This document shows, one piece after another, positions 37,198 through 54,347 of a DNA stretch of 54,347 nucleotides. Each line of letters begins with the position of its first letter. The first letter of the stretch is position 1. Position numbers and translations under genes: made by a program. Origin of the DNA: Gammaproteobacteria bacterium (lineage in GTDB: Bacteria; Pseudomonadota; Gammaproteobacteria; Thiohalomonadales; Thiohalomonadaceae); assembly GCA_003252455.1 (NCBI GenBank), contig QKED01000083.1, forward strand, positions 1 through 54,347, read 5' to 3'. Under the pieces are notes generated by a model. The model saw only the letters and a program-made list of their open reading frames with translations. It searched no databases and had not been told where the DNA came from.

Positions 37198-37199
37198 AC

Positions 37200-39242
37200 T
37201 CACTGTCCGGGCGTCACCACCGGGGCGCGTTCGCGCAGCGGGATGACGCTGTGATCCTCGGCCAGGTCGGTGATGGGCTGCTCGTGGTCCAGCTCACCGA
37301 GGGCCCAGGCGGCGTAGCGTGGGTTGAGCTTGCGATAGCGCAGGGTGGCGTGCAGGGTGATAGGTGACTTGGCCCAGTAGGGGATGGGGAAGTGGTACTC
37401 CACTACATCGCTGCCACCCGAGGGGATCACCCGCTTCTCCATATCACCGGTGACGCGGAACAGGTCGTGGCGCCATACCGCACGGCCCTGGCGGTCCACC
37501 GGGATGGAGCGGTAGAAGACCGCCGCCGGGTCGACGCGCCCATCCACCTCCAGCTCACCGCTACGGAAGAGCCGCCGCCCCTCGGCATCTTGCACACGAA
37601 AGTCGACCCACGCCTCGTTGATATCGGTGGTCCCGCCGGGGAAGTTGTGTCCCACCAGGTTGTTGCTCACGCTGAGCTGGATGGTCGCCTCTTCGCCCAG
37701 GTAGAAGTAACTGGGCGTGTCATGCGCACTGCGCAGTTGTTCGTCGACGAACTGCCCGGAGCGGTTGGCGTCTTGGCGCAGGGGGCGGTCGATGGCGATG
37801 CGCAGTTTGTCTTGCTGCAGCATGCGCAGCACGGCGGCCTCCTGCTCGGCATCCCCGCTCAGGGTGGCCAGGAGTCGATTGGCCCCTGGTGCGCGGTGGT
37901 CCACCACCTGGCCTGCGGCATTGGCCGAGGGGTCACTGCCCGGGCGTGTGGGCATGTGACACGCCTTGCAATCCTGCCGCTGAGGGTGGCTGAAGCGGCT
38001 CTCGTTGAGCCCGGAGAAGGGGCTGGCGAGCCAACTGCTGTAGTCGTTCTGCATCTTCACCCAACCCCAGTGATTCATCTCCGGGGCCATGTACTGCTCG
38101 TGGCAGGTGGCGCAGAGCTCGGCGCTACGACTGATGGGGTAGCTGACCTCGGCGCGGTGCTCCTGGGGGTGGATGCTGATGAGGAAGTTGCGCAGCAGTT
38201 GCGCAGTCCGACCGGGCCACCCCTCGAAGAGGTAGGCACTCGGCGTCGCCACCTCGTAACTGCCGACCCCATTCAGGTGCACCGCGCCACGGATGGCGTG
38301 GCAACCGAGGCAGCCGACCCCCTCACGGTTGGCCAGGGTGCCGGGGACGCCACCGTGTTTGCCCCCGGGAGTCAGCTCGCCCGAGAGGAGCGCCACCGGC
38401 GCGTGGCACCCCTCGCAATAGCGCGTGGCATCGGTACCTCGACTCTTCTCTAGGAGGTTGACATTGGTGACGTAGGCCGGGTCCTTCGCCGCTAGGGCGT
38501 GCACCGAGGCCTGCCACTGACGGTAGATATCGGCGTGGCAGGTGGCACACTCCTGGGAGTTTCCAAGCCGCCTTGGGTCGATGAACTCGCCCTTGGCCAG
38601 GCGCGCCTGGCTCGGGTAGAAGGGCGAGTCACCGTAGCTGTACTGATAGTCGGCCACCTGGGGGGCATCGACGAAGGGGGAGGGCTGTGCCTCATAGAGG
38701 CGGGTGGCGCCGTAGCCGAAGAGGAGCACGCCGAGCAGGGCCAACAGGCTCACTCGGTTAAACGCCCACGGGAGGGTGAGCCAGGGGCTGCGCTGGTCCA
38801 TGGGTGGCAGACGGTGGAACAGCAGGTGCAGTACTAGCAGGGGGGCGAGCAGGTAGCCACCGACGATGTGCCACTGGTAGAGCCCGCGTAGTGCCTCCTG
38901 CTGGCCGAACAGGGTTACCTGTAGGCCGCTACCGGCGAGCCAGAGGGTGGACAGGGTGAGCACCAGGCCGGTGCCGATGGCGATGAGCCGTCGGCGACTC
39001 AGGACGCGTCGGATGTGGCGTAGCAGGTAGAGTGGCAGGGCCAGTACCAGCGCCACGCCGAACAGGGTGTGCAGCAGATAGGTGATCTGGCGCCACACCC
39101 CACCTGCATCGCTGCCGAGCGTCTCGCTCAGGTGGGTCGCGAAGCCGGAGAGGGCGGCGATGAGCGTCACCAGGGTGAGGGTGTGCAGCGCACGGCGCTC
39201 AAGCGCCAGGCGGGTCGGGTCGAGTGGTGGCGTCTCACTCAT
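37200..39242 (-). CDS. Five-haem cytochrome c fused to a cytochrome-b-like membrane domain
   Basis: Membrane cytochrome of 680 residues. The N-terminal part (about 20-180) has four or five helices with His pairs placed like a b561-type bundle: H58/H75 and H125/H139. The rest is periplasmic with five CXXCH haem sites at 232-236, 276-280, 311-315, 377-381 and 425-429, followed by about 250 residues of beta-rich domain without haem motifs. The pattern of W-x-x-S-x-H after the first site (WQASVH) recalls cytochrome c554-type multihaem proteins. It should pass electrons between the quinone pool and the periplasm. Its start overlaps the VCBS/HEAT gene by 8 bases. The b-haem assignment is inference. 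Confidence 0.85.
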   Translation of the reverse strand: MSETPPLDPTRLALERRALHTLTLVTLIAALSGFATHLSETLGSDAGGVWRQITYLLHTLFGVALVLALPLYLLRHIRRVLSRRRLIAIGTGLVLTLSTLWLAGSGLQVTLFGQQEALRGLYQWHIVGGYLLAPLLVLHLLFHRLPPMDQRSPWLTLPWAFNRVSLLALLGVLLFGYGATRLYEAQPSPFVDAPQVADYQYSYGDSPFYPSQARLAKGEFIDPRRLGNSQECATCHADIYRQWQASVHALAAKDPAYVTNVNLLEKSRGTDATRYCEGCHAPVALLSGELTPGGKHGGVPGTLANREGVGCLGCHAIRGAVHLNGVGSYEVATPSAYLFEGWPGRTAQLLRNFLISIHPQEHRAEVSYPISRSAELCATCHEQYMAPEMNHWGWVKMQNDYSSWLASPFSGLNESRFSHPQRQDCKACHMPTRPGSDPSANAAGQVVDHRAPGANRLLATLSGDAEQEAAVLRMLQQDKLRIAIDRPLRQDANRSGQFVDEQLRSAHDTPSYFYLGEEATIQLSVSNNLVGHNFPGGTTDINEAWVDFRVQDAEGRRLFRSGELEVDGRVDPAAVFYRSIPVDRQGRAVWRHDLFRVTGDMEKRVIPSGGSDVVEYHFPIPYWAKSPITLHATLRYRKLNPRYAAWALGELDHEQPITDLAEDHSVIPLRERAPVVTPGQ

Positions 39243-42200
39243 GCGCGGGTGCTCTCTCGGTGATGGGCGTCAACAGTGTGCGGGCACGGGTCGGGTCGAG
39301 TCGCATCAGAGCGGAGATGGCGGCATAGCGCTGTGACTCGGGCCGTGTGGGCTGCAGATAGACCTGTTCGAGCAGTGGGCGCAGCGCTTCAAGGGGCAGG
39401 GCGTGTGGGTAGTCGAGCAGGTCGCTCCAGAGGGACCCGTCGGGCTCGACCATCAGTTTTACCAGACTCCAGCGCACGACGGGGTCTGCGGGGTTGGCGG
39501 CCGCGAGCTGTAGGAGGTAGCGCCGGTCAGCGAGCGGGGCCGCCTCCGACAGCAGGCGATTGCGCCAGGCCAGTCGTGCCCAAGGGCGGGGACTGTGGAA
39601 TAGGGCGCTGAGGAGTGTCTCGGGGAGGGGCGCCGGCTCGTTCAGGGCCGCAGTGAGCGCGGGGGAGGCGCTCTGTGCCACTGCCTGCAGACTCGCATCG
39701 TCCGTCTGTGACGTGACTCGGGGCAGCCCCTCGCTCTGACAGGTCGAGGGGGCGGCTAGAGTGTGGCGCTGCAGACTGGCCACGATGCTCGCTTGGCCGA
39801 ACAGTAGACCGGCCTCTGTGTCGCACAGCAGTGTGGAGGCCAACGGGTCTCGCCCCTCTTCGGGCGTAGCGATGAGCAGGCGTTCGAGTAGCTCGTCGCC
39901 AGGCGCTGCCGAGAGGCGCCTGAGCGCCCCCATGGCGGCCACGCGCAGCGCCGTCGGTGCCGTCGCCTCGTCGAGAACACCCTCCAACGCCGGGATGGCC
40001 TCCCCCTCGCGCACGCTACCCAGGGCCTGGGCGGCGGCGCGGCTCACCTCGGCGTCGCGGTCGTGCAGGTGGGCGATCAGGGGCACCACCGCACGATGAT
40101 TCTCCGCCTCGGCCAGGGCGGCGATGGTACACATGCGCACGCTCGGTCGTGGGTCGTCGAGCAGGCGGATCAGTTCTGGTAGCGCCTGGTACTTGCGCAG
40201 GGTGAGCGCCTCCTCTTCACGATAGAAGTGGCGATAGGCCTCGGCCAGGGCACAGCGCACCTCGGCGTCGGGGTCACTGAAGCGCGCGAGCAGCCAGGGT
40301 GCGGCGAACTCCGACTCGTATTGGGCCAGGCCCTCAACGGCGAGGCGGCGCAGTGGTGCGCGTGCCTCACTGAGGCCGTCGATGAGGGTGCGTAGGCCAG
40401 AGTAACCGGGGTGTTCACTGGCGATCTTCAGCAACTGTTCTCGGGCATCGAGGTCATCCCACGCTTGGGCCAGCGCCGCCGCGGCAGCTGCGCCCCGAGC
40501 CGGGTCGTCGAGTAGCCAGCCCCATGCGCTGCGCGCATGACGCGGGTCATTGAAGAGCGGGGGCAGTGGCGGGATGGCGTGGGTCGCAGGCGGGGCGATG
40601 GGCGTCGCCTGACCGGTATCCTCCAGGCGATAGAGCTGATTGACCGCGAGGTCGGTATACCGCGAGGTGGTGCCGTCACGCCAGGTGACGAGGAGTTCAT
40701 CGATACGCTTGGCGGTGCCGAGGCCAAAGTGCTGGCGTAGGGGGGCATGACCCAGGTGGCCAGCGAGTTCCACCTCCCTTCTTTGCCACTGCGCGCCGAT
40801 GCGTAGGTCGAGCCGTGCGCCGATGGCATCGCGGTTGCCACGCGTCGCGCGAAGGTCGAACTCGACCCAGGCGCCGTCCGGATCGCCACTACTGAGGAGT
40901 TGAGGGGCACTGTTGTTATTGGCGAAGAGCAGCTCCAGGCTGCCGTTTTGGTCCAGGTCGGCGGTAACCACGGCGCGTGACGATGCGGGTGCGCGTGCCG
41001 TGTCGAGTGGCAGCGAATCGAAGCCGCGCCCCGCTCGATTGAGTAGCAGTGTGTTGCCTTGCGCCTGGGTCAGGCGTGGGGCCAGGGTGTCGGGGGTGAG
41101 TAATCCGTTGGCCTGCGCCAGGTCGAGCCAACCGTCATTGTTCAGGTCGCCCGCCACCATCGCCTGGGTGAATTGCCCGAGTAGTGGCTCATCGGCCAGG
41201 CCCCAAGGGCGTGTGAGATTGCCGTAGGGGGGCTTGGCGCTAAAGAGTTGGTTGGGCCGGGCGTCGCCACTCACCAGGAGGTACTCCGCTTCACGGTCGT
41301 TATCGAGGTCGAGGATCAGCATCTCCGGGGTATCGAGGTTGCTGATGAGCGGATGCGGTAGCGATTGTTCGACAAACCCCTCGGGTAGGCGGTTGAGCCA
41401 GATGCGGTTGGGCGAACCGGCAGAGTTCGCCACCAGTAGGTCGGGGCGACGGTCACCGTCCAGATCGTGCCAGCGGGCGCTCTGACCGCGACCGCTAGGG
41501 TTGTCCAGATGCAACGCCTGGGCACGATCCTCGAACCTCAGGCCGCCGAGGTTGTGGAGTAGGCGATTGGGGCTGCCGTCGTAGAGGTCGGCGGCAAAGC
41601 GATAGTCTCGGCTCGCCTCGAAGCCGCTGCCACGTTCATAGGCGAGGGCCCCTTGGCTAAAGCGCAAATAACCAACAACGTAGAGATCGAGCAGGCCGTC
41701 ACCGTCGTAATCGGCGATAGCCACTGAGCTGCTCCACCCCGTGGCGCCAAGACCCGCATCGAGCGAGATGTCAACAAAGGTCCCATCGCCCTCGTTGCGA
41801 TAGAGGTGGTCCTGGTCGAGTGTGGTGATATAGAGGTCGGTATCGCCGTCGTTGTCCAGGTCTGCCGCAGCACAGCCCATACCCCAGAGGGGTTGGGTGA
41901 GGCCGGCAGTCGCGCCCACCTCCCGAAAGCGGTTGGCGCCGAGATTGAGGTAGAGCAGGGGGTGGGTCGGTCGACTCCACCAGGCGTGGCGACCGAAATA
42001 GCGGTTCTCGCCACTACCTGCGACCTGCAGGATGTCGAGACGTCCATCACCATCGGCATCGAAGAGGCAGACGCCGGCACCATAGCTCTCGGTGATCGCC
42101 TTGAGTGGGTCACTACCCTGCAGGTGTGAGGTGAAGAGGCCGGCATGGTGGGTGATGTCGACCATCGGTGGGATGGTCACCACAGGGCGTTGCACGGTGG

Positions 42201-42351
42201 GTCGGGAAAATTCGGGCTGCGCCACCGGAGGCTCCCCCGGGCCGACACGCCACAGGGCTGCAGCGATGAGCAGAGGCAGGCCGATGAGCGTGAGGGTCTG
42301 GGTCGGAGACAAGGTGGTGGGCAGCGAGTAGGCGAAGGGTGAGAGGCTCAC
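39235..42351 (-). CDS. Exported VCBS/FG-GAP + ASPIC/UnbV + HEAT-repeat protein
   Basis: Protein of 1,038 residues with an N-terminal hydrophobic segment (about 18-35) as signal or anchor. Seven FG-GAP/VCBS repeats lie at about 90-480, each with a calcium-type loop such as DADGDGRLD, DLDNDGDTD and DYDGDGLLD. An ASPIC/UnbV-type domain (about 510-590: IGARLDLRIG, HFGLGTAKRIDELLVTWRDG) follows, as in CRTAC1-family proteins. HEAT-like helical repeats start near 640 (AEVRCALAEAYRHF, PRPSVRMCTIAALAEAE, DAEVSRAAAQALGSV). It is predicted to be a periplasmic or surface scaffold. Translational overlap with the cytochrome implies joint use. Confidence 0.85.
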   Translation of the reverse strand: MSLSPFAYSLPTTLSPTQTLTLIGLPLLIAAALWRVGPGEPPVAQPEFSRPTVQRPVVTIPPMVDITHHAGLFTSHLQGSDPLKAITESYGAGVCLFDADGDGRLDILQVAGSGENRYFGRHAWWSRPTHPLLYLNLGANRFREVGATAGLTQPLWGMGCAAADLDNDGDTDLYITTLDQDHLYRNEGDGTFVDISLDAGLGATGWSSSVAIADYDGDGLLDLYVVGYLRFSQGALAYERGSGFEASRDYRFAADLYDGSPNRLLHNLGGLRFEDRAQALHLDNPSGRGQSARWHDLDGDRRPDLLVANSAGSPNRIWLNRLPEGFVEQSLPHPLISNLDTPEMLILDLDNDREAEYLLVSGDARPNQLFSAKPPYGNLTRPWGLADEPLLGQFTQAMVAGDLNNDGWLDLAQANGLLTPDTLAPRLTQAQGNTLLLNRAGRGFDSLPLDTARAPASSRAVVTADLDQNGSLELLFANNNSAPQLLSSGDPDGAWVEFDLRATRGNRDAIGARLDLRIGAQWQRREVELAGHLGHAPLRQHFGLGTAKRIDELLVTWRDGTTSRYTDLAVNQLYRLEDTGQATPIAPPATHAIPPLPPLFNDPRHARSAWGWLLDDPARGAAAAAALAQAWDDLDAREQLLKIASEHPGYSGLRTLIDGLSEARAPLRRLAVEGLAQYESEFAAPWLLARFSDPDAEVRCALAEAYRHFYREEEALTLRKYQALPELIRLLDDPRPSVRMCTIAALAEAENHRAVVPLIAHLHDRDAEVSRAAAQALGSVREGEAIPALEGVLDEATAPTALRVAAMGALRRLSAAPGDELLERLLIATPEEGRDPLASTLLCDTEAGLLFGQASIVASLQRHTLAAPSTCQSEGLPRVTSQTDDASLQAVAQSASPALTAALNEPAPLPETLLSALFHSPRPWARLAWRNRLLSEAAPLADRRYLLQLAAANPADPVVRWSLVKLMVEPDGSLWSDLLDYPHALPLEALRPLLEQVYLQPTRPESQRYAAISALMRLDPTRARTLLTPITERAPAHE

Positions 42352-42374
42352 CCTTCGCGTGGGGCCAGATGCGC

Positions 42375-44417
42375 TTAGGGTGCCGCGGGTGGCACGTAGG
42401 TGGCGAAGGCCTGGAGTTTTCCGAGGCCGGCAGGGATTGTCGCCGTGGCGGTGGCGTTGCCGCTGGCGTCGGTCGGGCTACTCTGTACCACGCTCAGACC
42501 ACCGGCAGACATGATCCGCACATCGATCACCGTACCCGTCGGGAGCTGCGGGGCGGAGAGGCCGATGGCCACCTCACCACCGTTGTTGAACACCACATCG
42601 ACCTCGCCCAAATCACCCTGTGGGGGGGCCGCCACCGCCTGACCGTCGACAGTGGTGATGGCGATGCTGGCCAGCTTGGGGGCCTGGTCGTCGGTGAGTG
42701 TGGTGGGTTGCATGGAACCCGTGATGCTGCCGGAGCTGGCGTACATGTTGAGGTTGCCCGCCTGATAGAAGGCCTCGGTGCGGATGCGACCGAAGGAGTC
42801 GGCGCGCAGTGTACCGCCACCAGCGATGCGACCGGCCACCAGGCGGATGGAGCCGCCTGAACCGTTACCACTCGGGCCCGAACCGCCGCCACCGTTGGCA
42901 GTGATGGAGCCGTTGAGGGTGATCTGGGTATTGGAGGCGATGAGGATGGCGCCACCACCGGCACCGCCGTTGTAACCGTCACTGGTATCGGTGGAGGCCG
43001 AACCACCACCACCTGAACCACCGAGCACCGGACGCACGAGACGGTTACCGTAGGTGGTTCCGTTCATGGCCACGGTACGCCCGTAGCTGGTATTGGTCGA
43101 TTTGTTGGCGTGAGCGGCGTGACCACCGCCCTGGCCATTGGTCACACCCGGCGCACCGCCGCCGATGCCCTCGCCGGGCTGAGCGGCGTAGCTGCCACTG
43201 ACCGAGAAGCGCCGACCTCCTAGCCCACCATGACCACCGCCAGGCCCAGGAACGGGCTCATTGCCGGGCATGGGGGCGGTGCCGCTGCCATTGTAGTCTT
43301 GCCCATTGAGGTTGATGGCGCCACTGATGGTCACATCGTCGCTGGCGAGCCACACCACGGGGGTGTTGTTGGCATTGCCCTTGAAGCGCACCTCGACCCC
43401 GACAGGAATGTCGATGGTGGTGAAATTGAAGGTCCCGTCGGCCCTACTCGTCATATCGAAATACATTACCGGGTTGGAGTCGCTCGGTCGCTTGAAGCCG
43501 TTGGCCTCGTCCCAGTAGTAGGTGTAGATGCCGTCGGTGAGCAGGACCTTGCCCCTGGCGGCATCGTAGACCGCCGGGTCGTTGGTCATGTTGGGGTTAC
43601 CGCTGGAGATCTGCTCCCAGGTCGAGCCGTTCCAGTATTTCACCGTTGTGGCGTCGAAGGCGACGATCTTCTGGAGCTTGGGATCGTAGATGATAGGGTC
43701 ATCGGCAATGCTGGGGTAGGAACCCGGTGCACCACGGGCACTCCAATCGCTGCCGTTCCACTCGTAGGTGTAGGCACCGAGTACAGCCACGACTAGACCA
43801 CGACTCTCATCGTAGGCCATGCAATGGTCGTTCGAAGCGGGCAGGTTGGTGGTGGTGGGGATGACGGCGGTCCAGCTCGTACCGTTCCAGGCCCACATGT
43901 CGTTGCGGTCGCTGGTGCCATCGTGGCCACCGATGACCAAGAGCTGCTTGCGCGCACCGTCATAGACCATGGAGGGCTCACTGCGCCCGACCGGCCCAGC
44001 GGCACCGCTCTTTTGTGTCCAATCGACGCCGTTGAACTCCCAGACGTCGTTGTTGCGCAGCCCGTCGCTGTCGACACCACCAAACATCACCACCACCTGT
44101 CTCTGCGGGTCGTAGGCGAGGGCAGTACCGACGCGGGGGCCGGGGCTGTGTGCGGTCTCTTTCGGCAGCCACCTCGAGCCATCGAAGAGGTAGGTGACCC
44201 CTTTGTCAGCCTGATAGCGCACCACCACCTCTCGGGCGGCGTCGTAGGCCATGATGCGGTCGTCGTTCACATCGTCCGGGACCGGGGCGTAGTAGATAAG
44301 TGCGCCATCTGTCCCACTCGAACCGCTGTCGATCAGCGCTTCCGCGGCCATGGCATCCGTGCGCCAGAGCGCCCCCATCAGGGAGACGACCAGCAGTGAG
44401 CGATTAAAGGGCTTCAT
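42375..44417 (-). CDS. Exported kelch-like and Gly-rich surface protein
   Basis: Protein of 680 residues with a signal peptide (SLLVVSLMGALWRTDAMAAE). Residues about 50-320 are kelch-like repeats in which AYD or VYD starts each blade and N-G-x-x-W closes it, giving a probable beta-propeller. About 330-560 is a beta-helix-like stretch interrupted by a Gly-rich region (GGGHGGLGG, GGSGGGG, GGGGSGPSGNGSGG). The C-terminus has an Ig-like domain with GTVIDVRIMSAGG. Such proteins are usually on the cell surface or secreted. There is no catalytic motif. It lies 23 bp upstream of the VCBS protein start and 63 bp after the giant gene. Confidence 0.75.
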   Translation of the reverse strand: MKPFNRSLLVVSLMGALWRTDAMAAEALIDSGSSGTDGALIYYAPVPDDVNDDRIMAYDAAREVVVRYQADKGVTYLFDGSRWLPKETAHSPGPRVGTALAYDPQRQVVVMFGGVDSDGLRNNDVWEFNGVDWTQKSGAAGPVGRSEPSMVYDGARKQLLVIGGHDGTSDRNDMWAWNGTSWTAVIPTTTNLPASNDHCMAYDESRGLVVAVLGAYTYEWNGSDWSARGAPGSYPSIADDPIIYDPKLQKIVAFDATTVKYWNGSTWEQISSGNPNMTNDPAVYDAARGKVLLTDGIYTYYWDEANGFKRPSDSNPVMYFDMTSRADGTFNFTTIDIPVGVEVRFKGNANNTPVVWLASDDVTISGAINLNGQDYNGSGTAPMPGNEPVPGPGGGHGGLGGRRFSVSGSYAAQPGEGIGGGAPGVTNGQGGGHAAHANKSTNTSYGRTVAMNGTTYGNRLVRPVLGGSGGGGSASTDTSDGYNGGAGGGAILIASNTQITLNGSITANGGGGSGPSGNGSGGSIRLVAGRIAGGGTLRADSFGRIRTEAFYQAGNLNMYASSGSITGSMQPTTLTDDQAPKLASIAITTVDGQAVAAPPQGDLGEVDVVFNNGGEVAIGLSAPQLPTGTVIDVRIMSAGGLSVVQSSPTDASGNATATATIPAGLGKLQAFATYVPPAAP

Positions 44418-44480
44418 ACTTAACCTCTTCTCTCTTGTCTTCGGTGGTACGCAAACGTTCCTTACCCGCTAGGGTCAGGG

Positions 44481-47400
44481 TCAATAGAGGGGTTCGATGA
44501 GAGTCGAACCATCGGTCTGTCGGGTCAGGCGCCAGGCGCGGGTTGCGTTGTCGGCCAGATCGGCCACACCGCCACTGGGGATGACCAGCACCAACGGTCT
44601 GTCCGCCAGGGGTTCCGCCGCCAGTGTCAGTACGAGCGTGTTTGGTGTCAGTGCCAGCGCGGCGCTGATCACCTGTGGCGCACCCTCACCCTCCAGGATG
44701 TAGTGGGCGGCGTCGAGCTGTAGTGGGTCGAGCGCTTCATCGAAGAGGACGCTCAGCTCAGCACCGACGCGTGTCAGCCCCAGGGGGCGTGGAGCGCTGA
44801 TGTCGGTAGCCAAGGTGGCACCAAACTGGACAACACGCCGCTCGGCACGATTGCCGGCGAGGTCCTCGATGCCGTCCAGCGTGAGACGACTGGTACTGCC
44901 CTGCAGGAGGGGGGCGGCAGGGTCGAGGCGCAACTGTTGATAGCCCCGGTGGAAGCTGGGGTGATAGGCGATGGGCTGGCCCTGTGCGTCGATCCAGGCG
45001 AGCGTGCTCGGGGTGACGCTCAGGGGGTTGATCGGCTCGTCGAAGCGCAGGGTCAGGTGACCGTTACTGGCGAGGCCTGCCGCCTGCCACTCACCCGATT
45101 CACTCGCTACCGCCACTGGTAGGAGTTGCACGACATCGGGGGCCTGGTAGTCGGCGGGGCTCTGGGCGGTGAGGCTGTGCACCGCAGCGGTGAGGGCCTC
45201 ACCCTGTAGGTCGTGTACACCCTCGCTGACGGCGGCTAGCACGGGTTGCTGCAGTGGCAGTAGGGTTCGCGGTGTGGCGCGCAGGGCGGTGTCGCCGTGT
45301 GTGGCGCTGATCAGGCTGTCGAGTAGGGTGGCTCCCGCCTCGGCAGGGCGCAGGGCCACATTGGCCGGGGTGGCATCGGTAGGATTGAGGGGCTCACTGT
45401 AGCCACTCTCTACGGCCACGTTTTGCGGCACCGTCTCGACACTACCAGGCGGATTGACGGCCACCAGCTCGGGGGCCGTCGTGCCTGCTTCGGCGGGGAG
45501 TCGGAACGAGCCCTGGTAGGTGAGGAAGTGGGCCCCATCCGGGCTTTGTGCATCGGCCAGGGTCACCTCCACCAGGGCGTCCTGAGGCCAGGCTTGGTGT
45601 GGGGTGAAGACAATGATGCGCCCCTCGTCGTGCAGGGTGAGTTCGCCGCTTACCGGGACGCCACCGACACTCACCTGTAGCCCTCGTGCGACGCTGTCGG
45701 CGTCGAACGCTAGGGTGCCGAAGAGGCTCAGTTCGCCCTGCGGTGAGGCCAGCGTGGCCGTGTCGGCGGGACGTTGGGCGATGACCTTGGGCGTCGGGCC
45801 CGTGCCCTCATCCCAGGTGGTGAAGATCGCCGATGAGTAGGGTAGACGATTACCGGCCAGATCCTCGGCGCCGAGCACCGCCACACTCACCAGTGCATTG
45901 GGCGGCAGGGCCGTGAGTAGGGTGACAGCGTGGTTATCCGGGCTCAACAGCATCTGGTAGGGGATGGGGACGCCATTGCTGCTCAGCAGCACTGTATCGC
46001 GGTTGAGCGTCGCGCTCGCCATCGCCTCGGAGAAGGTGAGGGTGACACGGCTGTCGGTCGGCACGTCGAGGCTCTGGTCTCGCGGGGTGACCAGCAGCAG
46101 CGTCGGTGCCTGCTCATCCAGTCTGGACTGACTCCCCAACTGCTCCAGTAGCGAGGCCTCCAACGGCGCTAGCTCCACCGAGAAAGTGCTAGAGGCACTT
46201 TGGCTCACGGCCGTGGTGATGACCAGGCTCTCGTCATTGGCATAGGCGACCACGAGCGAGTGATGCGTGATACCGATGGCCGATTGGGCGTTGTTTGGGT
46301 CACTGCCCAGCTGTGACTCGTCTTGATCGGAGATGCCATCGCCGTCACTGTCGCTGATCTGCTGATTGAGGAATGCGATCAGGGTCGATTCGATGCTGTT
46401 GCGTATGGGTTGCGAGCTGGCCAGGGCCGGGTCGGTGCCGGTCTGCTCCTCGTCGATATCGGAGAAGCCGTCCTGATCGCCGTCGGCGATATACTGGTTG
46501 AGGTAGGCGGCGAGGTCCGACTGCAGGGTGTGGCGTGCAGGCATGGAACTCGCGAGTAGGGCGTCGGTACCCACCAACGCTTCATCGGCGTCGGCGAAGC
46601 CATCTCGATCGCTATCGGCGATGTGCTGGTTGAGGTAAGCGGTATCCAAGCCGTGCACCGCGAGGGGGGGGCGTGAGCTGGCGTCGCCAGATTCGGTACC
46701 GAGTTGCGCCTCGTCGGCGTCGCTGACGCCATCGAGGTCGAGGTCTGCGATAGACTGATTGAGGTGGGCCACTAGTTGGCTGATCGTCTGCAGCTCGACG
46801 GTGGAGTCACGGCTGTCGGGGTTGGTACCGAGGAGCACCTCGTCGTTGTCGGTCAGCCCATCGCCATCACGGTCGCGCAATTGGCGGTTGAGGTAGGCGA
46901 CCCGCAGGCTATCGGCCTTGCCTGGGAAGCCGTTGGCACTCACCGGGTTGGTGCCGAGCTCACGCTCCAGGGCGTCGTCGAAGCCGTCGCCGTCGCTATC
47001 GGCCAGGGTCGGATCGGAGCCGAACAGGTACTCCTCGCGGGCACTCAGGGTGTCGCCATCGTAGTCGCGCAGGGCGTCACTCGGGTTGGTCGGATCGAGA
47101 TTGAGCGGTGCGCCACGCAGTGCCACCTCATAGCCGTCGGGCAGGCCATCGCCATCGGTATCGGCCATGCGTGGCTCGGTGATGAAGCCGTCGGCACCCG
47201 AGACCATCTCTTCGCTATCGTCGATGCCATCACGGTCGGTGTCGGCAAGCAGCGGGTCGAGGTAGTTCTCCACCTCAAAGCCGTCGGCGAGGCCGTCGCC
47301 ATCGCTGTCGGCATTGTTCGGCAGGGTGCCGAAGACGTTCTGTTCGGCACTGTCGCCGAGGCCGTCACCGTCACTATCTGCCTCGATGGGCAGTTCGAAG

Positions 47401-49775
47401 GTGGCGATGCCACTCATATTGCCGCCGAGGTCGAAGGCCTCGACCCCCACGCTGACACTGCTGCTCCCTGTCGGTAGGGTGAGTGTCTGGCGATAGGGGG
47501 CGGCGTTGTCGGTGGCGACGCGCACGCCGTCGACATAGAAGTGCACACCGGAGACGAGGATGTCGTCGCTGGCCAGGGCACTGACACGGACCTTGCCACC
47601 GTCGACACCCGTCATACCGTTGACCGGCTCGGTGAGGGTCACCTGAGGGGCGATGCCCTCGTCGTCGCGTAGCATGCGGTATTGGCCGATGAAGAGCCGT
47701 GAGCGACTGGATACCATGTAGATATAGGCGCCGTCGGCCGTGACGCCGTTGCCGTTGTCATCGCCATAGCGACTGAAATCGAGGATTAAGCGCGGGGCGA
47801 GCTGCGTCGGATCGGTGACGTCGGTGACAGGTACGCCATTGACGAAATAGACGTCGCTCGCAAAGGTGAGGTTGCCGACACGGGTCAGGTCGTTGATGCG
47901 GCCACCGTTGATCGCCGGGGTGGTGTCCTGCACCAGCGGTACAGAGGGGTTGCTCAGGTCGACGCTGGTGAGCGAGTTGCTGTAGTCCGCCACCAGGGCA
48001 TACCCATCGCCCATGACGACGGCGCGTGGGTCACCGGTGTCGATGACGCCATAGGTCTGTACTTGAGCGAGGTCCTCAATGCCGAACACCTCCAAGGCAT
48101 CGGTGATCACCCCGAGGCGGTCGCCCGCCGGGGCGACGGAGAGCGCGCGTGCACTCCCTCGGGTGCGTATGGTGGTACGTAGCTTGGGGCTACCAGGCTG
48201 ACTGATGTCGAATACCTGTACACCGGCATTGCTTACCGCTACCCAGAGCAGGTTGTCGACCACCTCGACGGCAGTGGCGTTGCCAGCGGTGGCGATCTGG
48301 GTGATGAGGGCGACGTGACCCGGGTCGGAGACATCGAGCACCTGCACCCCCGAGGCACCTTCGGCGACGAAGGCGAGGGTGTTGTGGGCCGCCACATCGA
48401 GGGCTGAACCCGGCGTGGGGTAGCTGGTAACGAGTCGTGGGGCACTACGGTCGCTGACGTCGACCACCTGGAGTCCACCGGTCTGCGCCGCGACGAACAG
48501 GGTGTTACCGAGCACGTCGAGGCGGATCGCGCTGTTTGGTAGCTGGAGCACGGAGAGTGCACTGGCCTCGAAAGTAGAGACGCTCACAGAGAGCTTTGCC
48601 TCGTGCCCGCTGTTGCTCACGGTTACCTCGGCGGTGCCGGTCTGGCCGCCATAGATTCGCCCTGGTTCACTGCCGAAGCTGGCGACGCTCAGGTCGCTAG
48701 AGCTGTAGTTGGTGCCGAGCGCGGAGGCGGTGAGGTCCAGCTCACTACCGTCAATCAGGCGTCCGAAGACCTGCACCGTCTCGCTGGTCTCGGTATCGAT
48801 GGAGTTGAAGACGATTGAGAGGGTGTCGGGGACGACGCGCAGTGAGTCGATGGCAGCACTGTAGTTTGCCTCACTGGCGTTGTTGGGGTCGGAGCCGACC
48901 AGGATTTCTACATAATCGTTGAGGCCATCGTTATCGCTGTCTGCTTGATTAGGGTCGGTGACGAAACCATCCTCACCGGCCATCACCTCTTCGCCGTCGG
49001 GGATGCCGTCGTCGTCGGTGTCTGCGTCCATGGGGTTGGTACGTGCCTGGAACTCCTCCAGGGCACTGAGACCGTCGCCATCCTGGTCCTCGAAGGCATC
49101 CAGCGGGTCGTTGGGGTCGAGGCCGTAGATCAGCTCTACATCGTCGGGGATGCCGTCGTTGTCGCTGTCACCGATATCCACCACCTCGATCGTGGCCACC
49201 GCCACCACACCCTGATGACGCACTGTAAGTAAGGTCGTGCCGACGGCCAATGCCGTGAGGGTTCCGCTGTCGTCGATGGCGACGATATCGGGGTTGGCGA
49301 TGCGGTAGTTGGTGCCGGGTTCGGTCACGACGTCACGCTGATTGCCACTGGGGAAGGTAGCTGTGATGGCGATGTCTTTGGTGCTCCCGACGCCGATCAT
49401 CAGCAGGTTCGTGGCGGGCACGATGCGCAGTGCTGTCGGGACCTCATCCTTCTCGGCACCGAACTGACCCACCTCGACGGTGTCGTTGGTCTGCACCACG
49501 AAGAAGTCGGTCTGCCCCGAGGTGGTCTTGCCATCTTTGCTGCAAGTGGCACGGGCGCGCACACGACCCATGAACGAGGGGACATTGCGCAGGTAGAAGT
49601 GGCCATCGCTATCGACAAAGGTGGTGCGGTTGAGGATGTTCACCACACACCCTTCGGAGAGCGCGAACTCGGCCTGGGCCGCGCCCGGGTTGAGCCAGAC
49701 GGCGCCGAGGATGGCGACTGCCAGGGGGCTCTTGTGGAGGCGACGATATCCTATCAGAGGCTTCTTCTGCATCAT
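44481..49775 (-). CDS. Giant exported Ca-repeat, beta-propeller and Ig-domain protein
   Basis: Protein of 1,764 residues with a signal peptide (KSPLAVAILGAVWLNPGAAQA). Order: Ig-like (about 110-195); thrombospondin-3-like Ca repeats (about 203-297); a second Ig-like domain (about 310-400); LVIVD-type beta-propeller repeats (about 409-615, each with V-x-D-V-S-D); an Ig-like domain (about 710-790); a long block of DxDxDGxxD Ca loops (about 794-1165) whose end is a distinct 43-44-residue repeat array; then five or more SbsA-type Ig-like domains to the C-terminus. It probably folds as a long Ca-stabilised fibre. It begins 4 bp inside the upstream gene (ATGA). Only a function in the cell envelope or outside can be claimed. 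Confidence 0.85.
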   Translation of the reverse strand: MMQKKPLIGYRRLHKSPLAVAILGAVWLNPGAAQAEFALSEGCVVNILNRTTFVDSDGHFYLRNVPSFMGRVRARATCSKDGKTTSGQTDFFVVQTNDTVEVGQFGAEKDEVPTALRIVPATNLLMIGVGSTKDIAITATFPSGNQRDVVTEPGTNYRIANPDIVAIDDSGTLTALAVGTTLLTVRHQGVVAVATIEVVDIGDSDNDGIPDDVELIYGLDPNDPLDAFEDQDGDGLSALEEFQARTNPMDADTDDDGIPDGEEVMAGEDGFVTDPNQADSDNDGLNDYVEILVGSDPNNASEANYSAAIDSLRVVPDTLSIVFNSIDTETSETVQVFGRLIDGSELDLTASALGTNYSSSDLSVASFGSEPGRIYGGQTGTAEVTVSNSGHEAKLSVSVSTFEASALSVLQLPNSAIRLDVLGNTLFVAAQTGGLQVVDVSDRSAPRLVTSYPTPGSALDVAAHNTLAFVAEGASGVQVLDVSDPGHVALITQIATAGNATAVEVVDNLLWVAVSNAGVQVFDISQPGSPKLRTTIRTRGSARALSVAPAGDRLGVITDALEVFGIEDLAQVQTYGVIDTGDPRAVVMGDGYALVADYSNSLTSVDLSNPSVPLVQDTTPAINGGRINDLTRVGNLTFASDVYFVNGVPVTDVTDPTQLAPRLILDFSRYGDDNGNGVTADGAYIYMVSSRSRLFIGQYRMLRDDEGIAPQVTLTEPVNGMTGVDGGKVRVSALASDDILVSGVHFYVDGVRVATDNAAPYRQTLTLPTGSSSVSVGVEAFDLGGNMSGIATFELPIEADSDGDGLGDSAEQNVFGTLPNNADSDGDGLADGFEVENYLDPLLADTDRDGIDDSEEMVSGADGFITEPRMADTDGDGLPDGYEVALRGAPLNLDPTNPSDALRDYDGDTLSAREEYLFGSDPTLADSDGDGFDDALERELGTNPVSANGFPGKADSLRVAYLNRQLRDRDGDGLTDNDEVLLGTNPDSRDSTVELQTISQLVAHLNQSIADLDLDGVSDADEAQLGTESGDASSRPPLAVHGLDTAYLNQHIADSDRDGFADADEALVGTDALLASSMPARHTLQSDLAAYLNQYIADGDQDGFSDIDEEQTGTDPALASSQPIRNSIESTLIAFLNQQISDSDGDGISDQDESQLGSDPNNAQSAIGITHHSLVVAYANDESLVITTAVSQSASSTFSVELAPLEASLLEQLGSQSRLDEQAPTLLLVTPRDQSLDVPTDSRVTLTFSEAMASATLNRDTVLLSSNGVPIPYQMLLSPDNHAVTLLTALPPNALVSVAVLGAEDLAGNRLPYSSAIFTTWDEGTGPTPKVIAQRPADTATLASPQGELSLFGTLAFDADSVARGLQVSVGGVPVSGELTLHDEGRIIVFTPHQAWPQDALVEVTLADAQSPDGAHFLTYQGSFRLPAEAGTTAPELVAVNPPGSVETVPQNVAVESGYSEPLNPTDATPANVALRPAEAGATLLDSLISATHGDTALRATPRTLLPLQQPVLAAVSEGVHDLQGEALTAAVHSLTAQSPADYQAPDVVQLLPVAVASESGEWQAAGLASNGHLTLRFDEPINPLSVTPSTLAWIDAQGQPIAYHPSFHRGYQQLRLDPAAPLLQGSTSRLTLDGIEDLAGNRAERRVVQFGATLATDISAPRPLGLTRVGAELSVLFDEALDPLQLDAAHYILEGEGAPQVISAALALTPNTLVLTLAAEPLADRPLVLVIPSGGVADLADNATRAWRLTRQTDGSTLIEPLY
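46281..46910 (-). repeat. Five tandem 43-44-residue EF-hand-like repeats in the giant protein
   Basis: Each unit has a helix ending A-Y-L-N-Q-x-I-x-D, then a 12-residue loop of the form DxDxDGxxDxDE, then G-T and a Ser/Pro linker. Units start 43, 43, 44 and 44 residues apart. Positions 1, 3, 5, 9 and 12 of the loop match an EF-hand/TSP3 Ca-binding loop. Spacing is protein-level; the DNA copies have diverged. Confidence 0.75.
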
Positions 49776-50887
49776 GGCTGGCCCTTGCCCGGCTGGGTGT
49801 TGTCGATGAAGCGATGGATGATTGCGGAGGAGAGGAGTTCGCCTACGGCGCTACCGTAGAGATCCCAGTCGAAGAGGCGCTCCTCACCAGCGTGCTTGAG
49901 CGGTAACAGGACGATAGCGTCGGGGTCGGGGGCTATACGTTTGAGCCGTACCACATAGAGGGTATGTTGCTCGGTCTCCAGTTGCAGGAGGCCCTCGACC
50001 GTCTGCGTTTGTCCGAGCAGGGCAACGAAGGCGTCGACTGAGTACCAGTTCTTGGTCCAGCTCTGATCGAGGAGGGTTACCGGGATGAGGGCGTCGACGT
50101 CGGTGTTGACACTACATTGGTCGATGACCCCCTGTACGTCCGCCTGGATCTCCTCCAGGGTCCGCCCGTGGAAGTTGATCCCCTGGATCGACGCCCAGCA
50201 CTGCTGGGCGCGCTCATTCGGTGCCCTGAGTCGTGCCGCGACGTCGGTGGTAAAGAGCGATTCGGCGAAGTGGAATTTCAGGGGGTGGAGTCCCTTGAAG
50301 TCCACGGTCGGTGAGACCGACGCAGTGACTTCAGCACTCGGACATGGGACCTGGCGGCGCGCACTGTTTTGCGACAACAACAGATAGCGAGACAGCAGGT
50401 CCTCTGGCTCGTTGGGGCGTTCAAAGAAATTACTCACCTGGCAGAGCGAGGTGCAGAGCAGGGGTTCGGCCAGCGTCAGACTGTTGCCAGCCTGGGTAAA
50501 ACGGGTCATGAACAGGGCATAGTCACCCCATTGATAGCGCTGCGCGGTAATCTCGGCACTCATGCTGCCGAAGTCGGCAAACTTGTCGGGATACTCCTTG
50601 AGACGCTGTTCGATGTCGCGCTGGCTCGCATCGAGTTTGGAGTAGAGGCGGGTGATCTTCTGGCTGTCGCCGCTTCGGGCAACCGCGAGGAACTGTTCCA
50701 GAGTGGTGAGCGCCATGGCGCTGCTCGCGTCCTGTGGCGCCATCCGCTCCAGCTCAGCGACCACGGAACCCTGGGGGTCGTAGCGCATGCAGAGGCTCTC
50801 TGCTTGCAGAGGCGACGCTGATGTGGCAGCGACGCCGAGGAGCAGCGAGAGCCTGATTTTGAGGGTCGTAATTGACTGCTTATGCAT
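49772..50887 (-). CDS. Unknown exported protein between the two giants
   Basis: Protein of 371 residues with a signal peptide (KIRLSLLLGVAATSASPLQA). It has several Cys, two close together in PLLCTSLCQVSNF, and single ones in RRQVPCPS, QQCWAS and DQCSVNT, which could form disulfides in the periplasm. No domain is recognised. ATG 50887 is 13 bp after the upstream giant stop, and its own stop overlaps the 1,764-aa gene (ATGA). This sandwiched position implies a dedicated partner such as a chaperone or assembly factor. Start and frame are secure; function is unknown. Confidence 0.75.
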   Translation of the reverse strand: MHKQSITTLKIRLSLLLGVAATSASPLQAESLCMRYDPQGSVVAELERMAPQDASSAMALTTLEQFLAVARSGDSQKITRLYSKLDASQRDIEQRLKEYPDKFADFGSMSAEITAQRYQWGDYALFMTRFTQAGNSLTLAEPLLCTSLCQVSNFFERPNEPEDLLSRYLLLSQNSARRQVPCPSAEVTASVSPTVDFKGLHPLKFHFAESLFTTDVAARLRAPNERAQQCWASIQGINFHGRTLEEIQADVQGVIDQCSVNTDVDALIPVTLLDQSWTKNWYSVDAFVALLGQTQTVEGLLQLETEQHTLYVVRLKRIAPDPDAIVLLPLKHAGEERLFDWDLYGSAVGELLSSAIIHRFIDNTQPGKGQP

Positions 50888-50900
50888 GGCTCACGTCTCC

Positions 50901-53900
50901 TTAGTTGCAGTTGCCGAAGCTGCCGCCTTCCATGATGGTGTACTTGAAGACGTTGTGCGTGTAGCTGTAGCTGAAACCCAGGATCTTGAAGGTAACGCTG
51001 AGGTTGGCCGTCGCCGTCACCGGGTCGAACTTTGCCTCGGCGCAGGATTTACCGCACTGTTCACCCGATGAGTAGGTGGCGGTGACCGAGGCGGAGACGT
51101 TGACCGTCGCCTCACCTTTACCTGCTACCTTCACCACGTCGCTGGTGTCCTTACAGTCGGGGTTCGCATCCAGATCGCACTTGACGATGCTGATATTGGC
51201 ATCGATCTGTGGACCGATCTTGGCCTTGATGGGGGAGCTGAGGCTCAGGGTGCCGCAGTTCTCGTCAGGGCAGTCGATGATGGTGTAGGAGACACTGCCA
51301 GTGGCATCCAGGGTGATGGAGGCACCGAGACCGGTCACCAGGATGTCGGCCTTGACTACATAACCGCCACCCACGGACTTGTTCGGGAATTTTTTCGCCA
51401 GACCGAGTCCGGGGACAGAGAGCTTTACCGAGCCGCCGACACCCGCACTACCCGTCACAGTCACGTAGTCGCGTGGGCCGGGGGTTTCGCAGCTGAGGCA
51501 GCACTTCTCGCCCTTGGTGCCCTTGAGGCTTACTTTGGTCTTGAGGTCCACGGCGAGCCAGGGGATGTCATTGACCTTTTTCTTGAACTCATAGAGTGCC
51601 TTGTTCACGAAGTCGGGTACCGGGGCCTCGACTGTGTAGGTGGCCGGGTCGGCATCACAGTGGTTGCCACATTTGCCGTCTTTGCAGGTGTAGCAGGCCT
51701 TCTCTGGGGTGCCGTCAGAGCAACCCTTGCCCTCGTCACCGGGGGCAGGGCTGCCGTCCTTGCACACCTTACAGATGTTGGCACGGTCCGCCTGCAGTGC
51801 GCTGGTCTCATCCTTGGGGTTGAAACCACCGCCGCAGAGCAACTCCCGACAGTCGTTGGGCTGCTGCTGTTTGAGCGGGCGGTCCTTGTCGATGATGGGA
51901 TTGCCGTCTTTACAGTCGCCGCACTCGGCCGGTGGCTTGTCGCCGTCGTCCGGTTTGGAGCCGCTGCAGAGCTCCTGGCGGCAATTGCCCAGCACCTGAT
52001 TTTCGGCCACGCGTGTCGGTACCAACTCACAATTTCCAGGGCAGCTTCCGACCTTGTTGTAGCAGTAGCCGCAACTGGCCTCGCCTTCACAGCAGCCACT
52101 GCCGCCGGGTTGACTGCCACAGTGCCAACCGGCCTTGATCACCCCTACACCCACATTGGAGCTGATGGTCGAGGCATCGGCACTCACCGTACCCAGGCCG
52201 ATGGTGACGAACTCCTCCAGGTCGTGGTCGTAGGAGTACATCTCCACCTCGGCCCCTGGGGCGTGACCGTCGACATTGGGCAGGGTGAGACGTGCCGGGG
52301 GATCGAAGCGTGCACCGTGCGGCTGGATGGTGACGATGAACTGCGGTTGCATGCCGTTGGGGGGGGGCATCGGGATCTTGTCGGCATTCACAGGGGTGAC
52401 CGAGAGCCAGCCCTCTTTGGCACCATCCGGGAAGGTGACTGAACCGGCCTTCACCTCTAGCTTGAAGCCAGGTACCTCGTCGAGGGTGAGGACCTGGTCC
52501 TCCTTGCCCACATAGAGGGCCCCTTCGGTGTCGAGGCGGACCAGGTAGATGGGGGAGGCGAGTGGGTTATCGACACCGGCAACGGTCACCAGGTTGTAGG
52601 AGAGGGTCGGCCACTCGCCCTCGATGGTGGTGGTACTCCCGTCGGCCAATAGGTGCACCGGCCCGACCGGCGCCTCGCTGATGGTGAAGCGTCCCTCCTC
52701 ATCGGTAACTGCCTGGCGATTGTGGGCATCCAGGTGGATGGTTACACCGGGCATCGGGTTATCCTGGTTGTCCAACACCACGCCACTGATGCGTGTCAGG
52801 CCCGGGTCGGCAGGGATGAAGGCGGAGGCGGTAAATCCGGCGTTGGCACTCGTGCCGCCCAGTTCTGCCACCACTTGCTGGCTATCGAGTCCGGCCAGGT
52901 CACCGAGGATGAAGAGTACGGAGGCGCGTCCATCCTTATCGGTAGTGACCATCCGTTCGCTACTACCGTCGGCGAAGCGACCACCGCCGGCGCGCACCTT
53001 GAACAGCACCTCGGCACCCTCGATGAGGTTCGAGCCGTTGTCGGTGACAGCCACCACGAAGGGCTGAGGCAGTGGCTGACGGATGGCCCCACGCTGATTG
53101 TTACCCGCGATGACGCCGATCTTGTCGCCCTGTTGTGGTGTGGCCGAGGCATAGAAGAGCGCCTCCCCCTCGAAGCCGACGGCACGTGCACGTACACGGT
53201 GGGTCGCCTTGCCGGCACGTGAGCCGAGGCGGAACTGCACCTGGGCCAGACCCTCGGTGTTGGTGGTGACCAGGGCCGCCTGCGCCTCCTCGTCGGTGTC
53301 GGGCTGGAGCAGGCCATCACCCTCGACTACACGGAATACTACCGCCTTGTCGACTACAGGTACGCCGTTGTGGCTCAGACGCACCACCAAGGGTTGGGTG
53401 AGGTCGCTGTAGATGGTCCCAGTCTGTTGCTGGCCGGAGATCAGCTCGATGCGGTTGTCCTCCAGCGGGGCTCGGTAGGTGACCTGGATGCGTGTCTCGC
53501 CCACGTTACCGACGGCATCAGAGGCGGTCACCTCGATGAGGTTATTGCCCTCGACCAGCGGGATGTCCTGGGCCAAATAGGTCCGGTTGCTCACCTCGGC
53601 ACGCACGCCGTTGACCATGACGATGGCGTCTTGATCGGCAACCGTACCGCGTACGATGTCGTTGACCAGACCGGAGACCGTGATGCGGTCGCTCAGCACC
53701 ACTTCGCCGTCGAGTGGTGACTGTACCGTCACGTAAGGCGGGGTCTTGTCCAGAGAGATACTGACAGTGGCGGTGCCCTCGTGGCTCTGGCGGCTGATGG
53801 CGCGCACCACGATACTGTTGGCCCCCTCTTCGAGCGTCACTTGTGCCTCGAAACTGCCGTTACTTTGCGCCACGGCCACCTCGTTGACCAGGACGGTGGC

Positions 53901-54347
53901 CTGGGTGTCGTCGACGGTACCGCGCACCGTGACCGGGGAGACACCGACCGTGCTCAGGCTGCTCGGTGAGCTGATGATCACCGCCGGGACGCTGCTCGCA
54001 TTGCGGTCGTCGGGAAAGTAGTCGTTGGCGTTGTCGACATTGTCGCCATCGCGGTCGGGGTCGCTGTTGTCGCCGATCCCATCACCGTCGAGGTCGGATT
54101 GCTCTGTCGCGTCGTCGGGGAAGGCATCGCTGTCGTTGGGGCGGCCATCGCCATCACGGTCGGTGTCGGCGTTGTCACCGATACCGTCACCATCGAGGTC
54201 GGACTGTTCGCTGGGGTCGTCGGGGAAGGCGTCCACGCCATTGTCACGGCCATCACCATCGCGGTCTACGTCGAGGCTGTCCGGGGTGCCGTCGTTATCG
54301 AGGTCGCTCTCGTGACGTGTGGGATCGTCGGGGTAGGTATCGACGTC
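50901..54347 (-). CDS. Giant exported Ca-repeat, Ig, Cys-rich protein (5' end beyond window)
   Basis: An open frame that runs through the right edge; at least 1,148 residues are visible and the N-terminus is missing. Order: thrombospondin-3-like Ca repeats (about 1-112, 35-residue period); two or more Ig-like domains of the FPxTV/VxVNGV type; Big_1-like domains (VVFRVVEGDG and VLFKVRAGGG); a carboxypeptidase-regulatory-like domain (SGVVLDNQDNPMPGVTIHLD); then about 155 residues with about 20 Cys and three C-x-x-C-K-D-G motifs; then a beta-rich C-terminal region (about 250 residues) with further Cys. No CXXCH is present in the Cys region. Presumably it is anchored at or released from the cell surface, as first or early gene of the cluster. 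Confidence 0.8.
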   Translation of the reverse strand, partial: DVDTYPDDPTRHESDLDNDGTPDSLDVDRDGDGRDNGVDAFPDDPSEQSDLDGDGIGDNADTDRDGDGRPNDSDAFPDDATEQSDLDGDGIGDNSDPDRDGDNVDNANDYFPDDRNASSVPAVIISSPSSLSTVGVSPVTVRGTVDDTQATVLVNEVAVAQSNGSFEAQVTLEEGANSIVVRAISRQSHEGTATVSISLDKTPPYVTVQSPLDGEVVLSDRITVSGLVNDIVRGTVADQDAIVMVNGVRAEVSNRTYLAQDIPLVEGNNLIEVTASDAVGNVGETRIQVTYRAPLEDNRIELISGQQQTGTIYSDLTQPLVVRLSHNGVPVVDKAVVFRVVEGDGLLQPDTDEEAQAALVTTNTEGLAQVQFRLGSRAGKATHRVRARAVGFEGEALFYASATPQQGDKIGVIAGNNQRGAIRQPLPQPFVVAVTDNGSNLIEGAEVLFKVRAGGGRFADGSSERMVTTDKDGRASVLFILGDLAGLDSQQVVAELGGTSANAGFTASAFIPADPGLTRISGVVLDNQDNPMPGVTIHLDAHNRQAVTDEEGRFTISEAPVGPVHLLADGSTTTIEGEWPTLSYNLVTVAGVDNPLASPIYLVRLDTEGALYVGKEDQVLTLDEVPGFKLEVKAGSVTFPDGAKEGWLSVTPVNADKIPMPPPNGMQPQFIVTIQPHGARFDPPARLTLPNVDGHAPGAEVEMYSYDHDLEEFVTIGLGTVSADASTISSNVGVGVIKAGWHCGSQPGGSGCCEGEASCGYCYNKVGSCPGNCELVPTRVAENQVLGNCRQELCSGSKPDDGDKPPAECGDCKDGNPIIDKDRPLKQQQPNDCRELLCGGGFNPKDETSALQADRANICKVCKDGSPAPGDEGKGCSDGTPEKACYTCKDGKCGNHCDADPATYTVEAPVPDFVNKALYEFKKKVNDIPWLAVDLKTKVSLKGTKGEKCCLSCETPGPRDYVTVTGSAGVGGSVKLSVPGLGLAKKFPNKSVGGGYVVKADILVTGLGASITLDATGSVSYTIIDCPDENCGTLSLSSPIKAKIGPQIDANISIVKCDLDANPDCKDTSDVVKVAGKGEATVNVSASVTATYSSGEQCGKSCAEAKFDPVTATANLSVTFKILGFSYSYTHNVFKYTIMEGGSFGNCN
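51640..52130 (-). repeat. Cys-rich segment with repeated CxxCKDG motifs
   Basis: About 155 residues with about 20 Cys. Two imperfect copies of a block C-R-x-E-L-C ... C-x-x-C-K-D-G-x-P occur (GDCKDGNP and KVCKDGSP), plus a third CxxCKDG near the end (YTCKDGKCG). Even numbers of Cys suggest disulfides or metal sites; no haem motif is present. Confidence 0.7.
54000..54347 (-). repeat. 105-bp tandem Ca-loop repeats at the right edge
   Basis: The block CGAGGTCGGA/CT recurs at 54089, 54194 and 54299, exactly 105 bp (35 residues) apart. Each unit encodes an F-P-D-D motif and two DxDxDG-type loops (for example SDLDGDGIGD and DTDRDGDGR). The array continues past the window. Confidence 0.85.

Follow-up and report, generated by a model that had tools for sequence, protein, structure and literature searches.

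The cluster and its recurring core

The DNA analysed here, referred to as the window, is one whole contig of 54,347 nucleotides (G000:C112, GenBank QKED01000083.1) of the 118-contig, 4.58 Mb genome of a gammaproteobacterium of the family Thiohalomonadaceae (assembly GCA_003252455.1, genome G000). Six minus-strand frames fill positions 37200–54347; from their coordinates they are separated by gaps of 13, 63 and 23 bp or overlap by 4 and 8 bp, in agreement with an earlier note on this DNA. Four of the six genes, which encode a five-haem cytochrome, an ASPIC/HEAT propeller, a stalk giant and a TSP3/LVIVD giant, are found together in three genomes (G000, G055 and G707) that belong to three different families, and we refer to them as the conserved core.

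Read along the minus strand, the array begins with the stalk giant (50901–54347), of which 1148 amino acids (aa) are left because the contig end cuts off its 5' end, and whose variable Cys-rich tip (50904–52142) comprises 413 aa with 30 Cys. It is followed by a 371-aa orphan (49772–50887), possibly the partner of this tip, by the TSP3/LVIVD/Ig giant of 1764 aa with its conserved N-terminal module (44481–49775), and by a kelch and Gly-rich protein of 680 aa (42375–44417). The last two genes, both in the core, encode a 1038-aa FG-GAP/UnbV_ASPIC propeller with C-terminal HEAT repeats (39235–42351, GTG start) and the 680-aa cytochrome (37200–39242), and overlap by 8 bp. The N termini of the 371-aa and kelch proteins look like signal peptides and that of the propeller has a hydrophobic stretch; all statements on export are made by eye, and topology is read by eye from positive charges, without a topology or signal-peptide program. 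The earlier note had recognized a kelch-like Gly-rich protein, a VCBS/ASPIC/HEAT protein and a final five-haem cytochrome, and Pfam (kelch; FG-GAP, UnbV_ASPIC and HEAT) and five CxxCH motifs bear this out. It had also described two giant calcium-repeat proteins, which holds for the 1764-aa giant (13 aspartate-rich calcium-type repeats by a loose pattern) and less well for the stalk giant, since the part remaining after loss of the 5' end has 3.

As the stalk giant is open at the contig end, the cluster may exceed six genes. A search of the genome's contigs for the continuation matched the last 128 bases of the window to this contig only, and the related giant of G055 gave only short weak matches outside this contig, mostly to repeat or Ig-type parts. 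No sigma-70-like promoter was matched in 36900–54347, which says little because shuffled sequence averages only 2.1 matches.

In G055, the frames of the cytochrome and the ASPIC-HEAT protein overlap by one base and diverge from a run that comprises the stalk giant, genes for a 149-aa and a thioredoxin-fold protein, the TSP3/LVIVD giant and a parvulin-type gene. The layout is likewise divergent in G707, where the run comprises the stalk giant, three small genes, a TSP3/LVIVD/Big_5 giant of 3442 aa and two further genes, one for a 162-aa and one for a thioredoxin-fold protein. Thus the redox pair shares the direction of the giants in the window and is turned round in the other two genomes. The thioredoxin-fold proteins of G055 and G707 have signal-like N termini and CPFC and CPYC motifs, the G707 protein scoring 27.6 bits, barely above the Pfam cut-off of 27; in the window, the corresponding part may lie past the contig end. 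Identities to the window proteins in G055 and G707 are 45% and 46% for the cytochrome (45–48% within the three), 40% and 32% for the ASPIC-HEAT protein, 59% and 48% for the stalk, and 46% (first 330 residues only) and 39% for the TSP3 giant. The G707 cluster (G707:C2, about 176900–201000) lies, by eye, between a methyltransferase-like gene and, after two genes, rnhA- and dnaQ-like genes, with six tRNA-Asp genes further on.

The earlier note had proposed recurrence of at least four of the six genes together in other genomes as a test of its cluster, and this was observed in G055 and G707, both from other families; therefore the link between cytochrome and giants is no accident of this contig. 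The six-gene unit itself stands only in its four-gene core: a search of the 368 other genomes of the class sample with the 371-aa protein gave nothing at E ≤ 0.001, and the kelch gene is unmatched in the G055 and G707 stretches.

The cytochrome and its relatives

The window cytochrome, which matches Pfam Cytochrome_C554, has five hydrophobic segments and five CxxCH motifs (residues 232, 276, 311, 377 and 425; stretch 37956–38549). These motifs are all invariant across 20 aligned sequences, from which the soluble relatives L030, L031 and L032 were left out. In the alignment used for histidines, which also omits L054 and adds G707, His 58 and 125 are kept in 20/20 membrane-bundle sequences, while His 76 and 139 are kept in 15/15 gammaproteobacterial and 0/5 acidobacterial sequences. 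This pattern suggests that gammaproteobacterial cytochromes carry two b haems stacked across the membrane and acidobacterial ones a single b haem, held in a predicted five-helix bundle at residues 9–185 or thereabouts (38688–39218; helix limits from a low-confidence model). The positive charges would place the c haems on the periplasmic side, and five membrane helices, two His pairs and five CxxCH motifs fit a quinone-linked carrier facing the periplasm. Four distal-type histidines (248, 362, 449 and 532) are invariant in 20/20 sequences. His 447 is kept in 17/17 sequences of the clades with tetratricopeptide repeats (TPR; see below) and lost in the three of the window clade, which have Val, Arg and Arg. 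This loss suggests an open catalytic haem site, which we do not claim because His 296, 322 and 592, invariant within the window clade, could replace His 447. An AlphaFold model of the cytochrome (six sequences) had a mean pLDDT of 44.6, too poor for fold searches.

Of the 56 genomes near the window that were searched first, 16 had a match to the cytochrome at E ≤ 0.001, in 12 of them a partial one around the haem stretch, and the only full-length match among 20 genomes of the window's family was in its own genome. Wider searches used samples of 369 genomes of the class, 14 of which, counting the window's, match at E ≤ 1e-30, and of 378 genomes of the phylum, of which two match, the window's and G707; Acidobacteria contributed five loci. 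Plasmid records yielded only remote matches, each spanning less than 80% of the cytochrome.

In a tree that keeps all 24 sequences, soluble relatives included, the cytochromes of the window, G055 and G707 form one clade (support 100/100). The 12 other gammaproteobacterial and the five acidobacterial membrane-bundle sequences form two further clades (100/100 each), joined to each other at 93/94, below the value from which the program counts a fork as firm. These 17 relatives have longer tails; two (L026 and L028) run off their contigs, and the 15 whole ones measure 904–1018 aa in the frames listed and all match a Pfam TPR family behind the haem part, the best match in G264 reaching only 25.8 bits (cut-off 24.4). 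The cytochromes of the window clade are 672–680 aa long (676 aa in G707) and lack the longer tail, and those of the window and G055 have no Pfam TPR match.

The ASPIC/HEAT partner

The 1038-aa protein matches UnbV_ASPIC with 57.3 bits (cut-off 23.4) and FG-GAP with 123.3 (cut-off 26.9), in addition to HEAT. Its UnbV_ASPIC domain (40630–40827) is the sole match to the family in the window's genome, and 14 control genomes have none. The name UnbV comes from enediyne clusters. An ASPIC gene adjoins the cytochrome in 10 of the 14 class genomes (G000, G055, G024, G034, G214, G264, G281, G343, G359 and G376), as found by six-frame search of the fetched stretches or, for G024, by Pfam, with UnbV_ASPIC at 22.4 bits, just below its cut-off, and FG-GAP well above its own. 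None was found beside the cytochrome in G136, G317 and G382, the G317 contig ending 1.5 kb downstream, and the neighbourhood in G081 is cut by a contig end. The pairing also occurs in G707 and in four of the five acidobacterial loci, the fifth being cut. The four soluble relatives (L030, L031, L032 and L054), which stand outside this tally, have no ASPIC match in the fetched stretches.

In 5/12 gammaproteobacterial loci of the TPR type, the ASPIC gene is followed by a related TPR gene, which in G359 comes after a second ASPIC gene. Within Gammaproteobacteria, cytochrome-TPR, ASPIC/FG-GAP and TPR proteins occur together at L029, L045, L047, L050 and L053, and the giants are unmatched in the stretches seen there. 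HEAT repeats are fused to the propeller in 3/3 members of the window clade, as against 0/7 whole ASPIC partners of TPR-type cytochromes scanned by Pfam (L048, L023, L025, L045, L050, L051 and L053). Both giants lie beside all three HEAT-type cytochromes found. The chance that both HEAT-type genomes of the class sample fall among the five genomes with the stalk is 1.5e-4, a value that includes the window, ignores relatedness and adjacency, and is a guide only. Since the other relatives carry a TPR tail and mostly lie beside an ASPIC protein, it would appear that an old cytochrome/ASPIC cassette, which occurs in both Gammaproteobacteria and Acidobacteria, was joined in one clade to exported giants. 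Independently of any link with giants, the cytochrome(-TPR)/ASPIC pair gives the ASPIC/UnbV domain a redox setting, and the exchange of helical repeats, TPR on the cytochrome or HEAT on the propeller, makes the pair testable as one complex.

The giant proteins and their variable tips

In the 1764-aa giant, Pfam recognizes TSP3_bac, LVIVD, Big_5 and Big_7, and in the stalk giant Glucodextran_B and CarboxypepD_reg, with Big_1 below its cut-off. Strong stalk matches (E under 1e-90) occur in five of the 369 class genomes (G000, G055, G161, G282 and G362). In G161, a related stalk (38% identity over about 595 residues) runs into RHS repeats and PT-HINT within the same protein, and two small genes past it lies a protein that is related to the TSP3 giant and shares its N-terminal module. 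In 12 plasmid records, the match extends over about 40% of the stalk stretch, and five of these records are annotated as RHS repeat-associated core proteins; for the TSP3 giant, plasmid records gave three short matches to its start only. Judged from their sequences, the giants are relatives of RHS proteins. The N-terminal module, marked by the string VNxLNR or INILNR (window 49356–49667, L027, L107 and L091), heads TSP3-type giants in four genomes and possibly serves export or assembly. Other giant frames of about 1970–2780 aa are present in the window's genome (G000:C111, C17, C84 and C87; L099–L102), three of the four matching the G055 giant in its calcium-type repeats and holding 29 to 88 Cys.

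The tips diverge far more than the stalk among G000, G055, G707 and G362, and contain 30 Cys in the window, 12 in G055 and 22 in G707. The first part of the window tip resembles that of G362 (38–42% over 114–149 aa), and the window and G707 tips are 24% identical over 381 aa, a figure that abundant Cys may inflate. In G362 (L094, G362:C49), stalk/tip genes are in tandem: their two 28-Cys tips are 38% identical, each is followed by a small signal-bearing gene, and the two small proteins are 31.8% identical. By eye, each of these tips has an HExxH-like motif, and the arrangement looks like polymorphic tip exchange.

One rival reading is a contact-dependent polymorphic effector, in which the stalk giant would carry a variable tip, the 371-aa protein would act as its exported cognate partner or confer immunity, and the redox pair would help the tip to fold. 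The RHS/PT-HINT protein headed by a related stalk in G161, the plasmid matches, the divergence of the tips and the tandem genes of G362 all speak for it. We nevertheless regard it as rather improbable, as the window's 5'-cut giant has no RHS repeat at E ≤ 0.1 and no HINT or known effector domain by Pfam, and no homologue of the 371-aa protein was found, which makes its immunity role a guess. The 371-aa gene sits directly behind the tip and, in our interpretation, fits a tip-specific partner. The idea that its product is a degenerate parvulin like that encoded in G055 was dropped because its best Pfam hit (E 0.054) is to an unrelated family and its best PDB hit has an E of 1.1; blastp against the G055 parvulin gave no match at E ≤ 0.1, and a structure model of the protein alone (mean pLDDT 39.9) was not used.

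The 680-aa kelch protein, the second half of which is Gly-rich, falls outside the core. In the class sample, six genomes besides the window's match its Gly-rich half and a seventh matches its kelch half. In 5/6, the Gly-rich half adjoins a stalk-like giant of RHS type (E 1e-33 to 3e-9), and in the sixth (G029) the neighbouring frame, cut by the contig start, gave no match.

Proposed electron transfer to the outside

The earlier note had interpreted the array as a surface structure with an electron-transfer end. In this scheme of extracellular electron transfer, or of a redox-coupled adhesin, the cytochrome would feed electrons to the surface along or beside the giants. There is a precedent for such a start, as CbcL, an inner-membrane cytochrome combining b- and c-type haems, begins an electron chain in Geobacter (PMC6148476). 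Moreover, the window's genome has an MtrCAB-type set at the end of another contig (G000:C58:82000–94715; L112 7182–12714), where the MtrB/PioB gene is accompanied by decahaem cytochromes of the OmcA/MtrC family (469.8 bits, cut-off 209.3) and of DmsE/MtrA type (290 bits, cut-off 192.2). By way of this separate set, electrons may well be exchanged between the organism and its surroundings.

The cluster itself lends this scheme no support. CxxCH motifs are absent from the other five genes of the window and from the giants of G055 and G707, the stretches listed for these two genomes have no second gene with five or more CxxCH, and Pfam recognized no outer-membrane conduit among the cluster genes scanned. 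MtrB_PioB is matched in one of the three carriers, the window's genome, and in neither G055 nor G707. The window cytochrome reaches only 29.9 bits against the OmcA/MtrC family (TIGR03507), below the curated cut-off of 209.3. Because the giants lack CxxCH and MtrB is unmatched in two carriers out of three, the data do not support an outward electron route through this cluster; we consider it improbable, and the earlier note's interpretation is supported in part only.

Two proposed modules in the envelope

The reading that we tentatively favour is that of a patchily distributed envelope cluster of two modules, the redox one of which serves the giants and is no electron wire. Module A would consist of the inner-membrane b/c cytochrome and the FG-GAP/ASPIC propeller with HEAT repeats, which is probably membrane-anchored. 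The two b haems of the bundle and the five c haems outside would conduct electrons between quinone pool and periplasm, and the propeller/HEAT protein may dock the cytochrome on its partner. Module B would comprise the two giants, both exported: the RHS-type stalk protein, whose tip is variable and Cys-rich, and its TSP3/LVIVD/Ig companion. The two modules would have been kept together in one cytochrome clade, the redox module serving the assembly, the disulfide state or the function of the giants. The anatomy of the genes, their recurrence and the cytochrome clade are shown here; the haem ligands, the topology, the quinone link, export and the functional coupling of the modules are predictions. 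The reading draws on the four-gene core in three families, the 100/100 cytochrome clade, the identities among the three genomes, the conserved His pairs, the ASPIC gene next to most of the cytochromes, the thioredoxin-fold proteins of G055 and G707, the G055 parvulin and the Cys-rich tips. That these tips have a thiol-redox role is a guess, a lead and not a result.

Several observations weigh against this reading. The link is known from three genomes, the window's included, and no protein of the cluster was seen to bridge the redox pair and the giants. Three genomes with a strong stalk relative (G161, G282 and G362) have no cytochrome match at E ≤ 1e-30, it being understood that the stalk of G282 and that of G362 are on short contigs and that the membership of all three in the cytochrome sample is taken from equal sample size and handle numbers. 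The structure models are too poor to use. Finally, the spread is patchy: the cytochrome is matched in one of nine genomes of the G707 family (all of one genus), for which reason the G707 cluster looks like an inserted island, in one of three genomes of the G055 order and in one of 20 of the window's family, so that joint transfer of the whole cluster may be all that lies behind it.

This last point leads to the main rival, in which the cytochrome/ASPIC-HEAT pair and the giants are unrelated modules of a block-moving accessory island and their nearness has no functional meaning. Besides the patchy distribution, it is favoured by the existence of each module apart from the other, as TPR-type cytochrome/ASPIC pairs occur without giant matches in the fetched stretches and RHS-type stalk giants occur in genomes without the cytochrome. 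However, adjacency survives the change of orientation between the window and the other two genomes, and all three HEAT-type cytochromes are linked to giants although their mutual identity of 45–48% implies long divergence; we therefore hold the passenger explanation to be doubtful, short of improbable. A more specific proposal, which we consider unlikely, is an envelope machine in which a quinone-linked b/c cytochrome and an ASPIC/HEAT adaptor would power giant RHS-stalk surface proteins or control their redox state, for example that of tip disulfides via thioredoxin-fold proteins. If the link of the two-module reading is functional, it would couple the respiratory quinone pool to how very large surface proteins are made or used.

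Elsewhere in the window are a HypF gene (hydrogenase maturation; 31563–33848), a ferrochelatase gene (20823–21920) and a 1292-aa minus-strand frame (23776–27654), which adjoins a TraF_2-type gene and has no Pfam match at E ≤ 1e-8.

Comparison with known systems

A description of this gene set was not seen in the literature searched and, to our knowledge and in that literature, no described system ties the quinone pool to very large surface proteins. The cytochrome recalls CbcL in having, as predicted here, b- and c-type haems in one inner-membrane protein that is likely to act at the quinone pool. In this comparison of architecture, it differs in its five c haems, its C-terminal beta-type domain and its ASPIC partner. 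The MtrCAB conduit lies outside this cluster in the one carrier that has it. With RHS and polymorphic toxins (PT-HINT, DUF6531), the cluster shares a stalk homologous to the G161 RHS/PT-HINT protein, a variable C-terminal tip and a small signal-bearing gene behind it; unlike them, the window's giant has neither RHS repeats nor HINT nor a recognized effector domain. The propeller resembles CRTAC1/ASPIC-UnbV FG-GAP proteins in combining FG-GAP and UnbV_ASPIC, and its counterparts lie beside the five-haem cytochrome in most membrane-bundle relatives, but the HEAT repeats fused behind it set apart the window clade. CRTAC1 genes flanked by hydrazine-synthase-like genes have been described (PMC12758564), and there, as here, a CRTAC1 gene is next to redox-enzyme genes; the enzyme family is another one, so that the analogy is of neighbourhood only.

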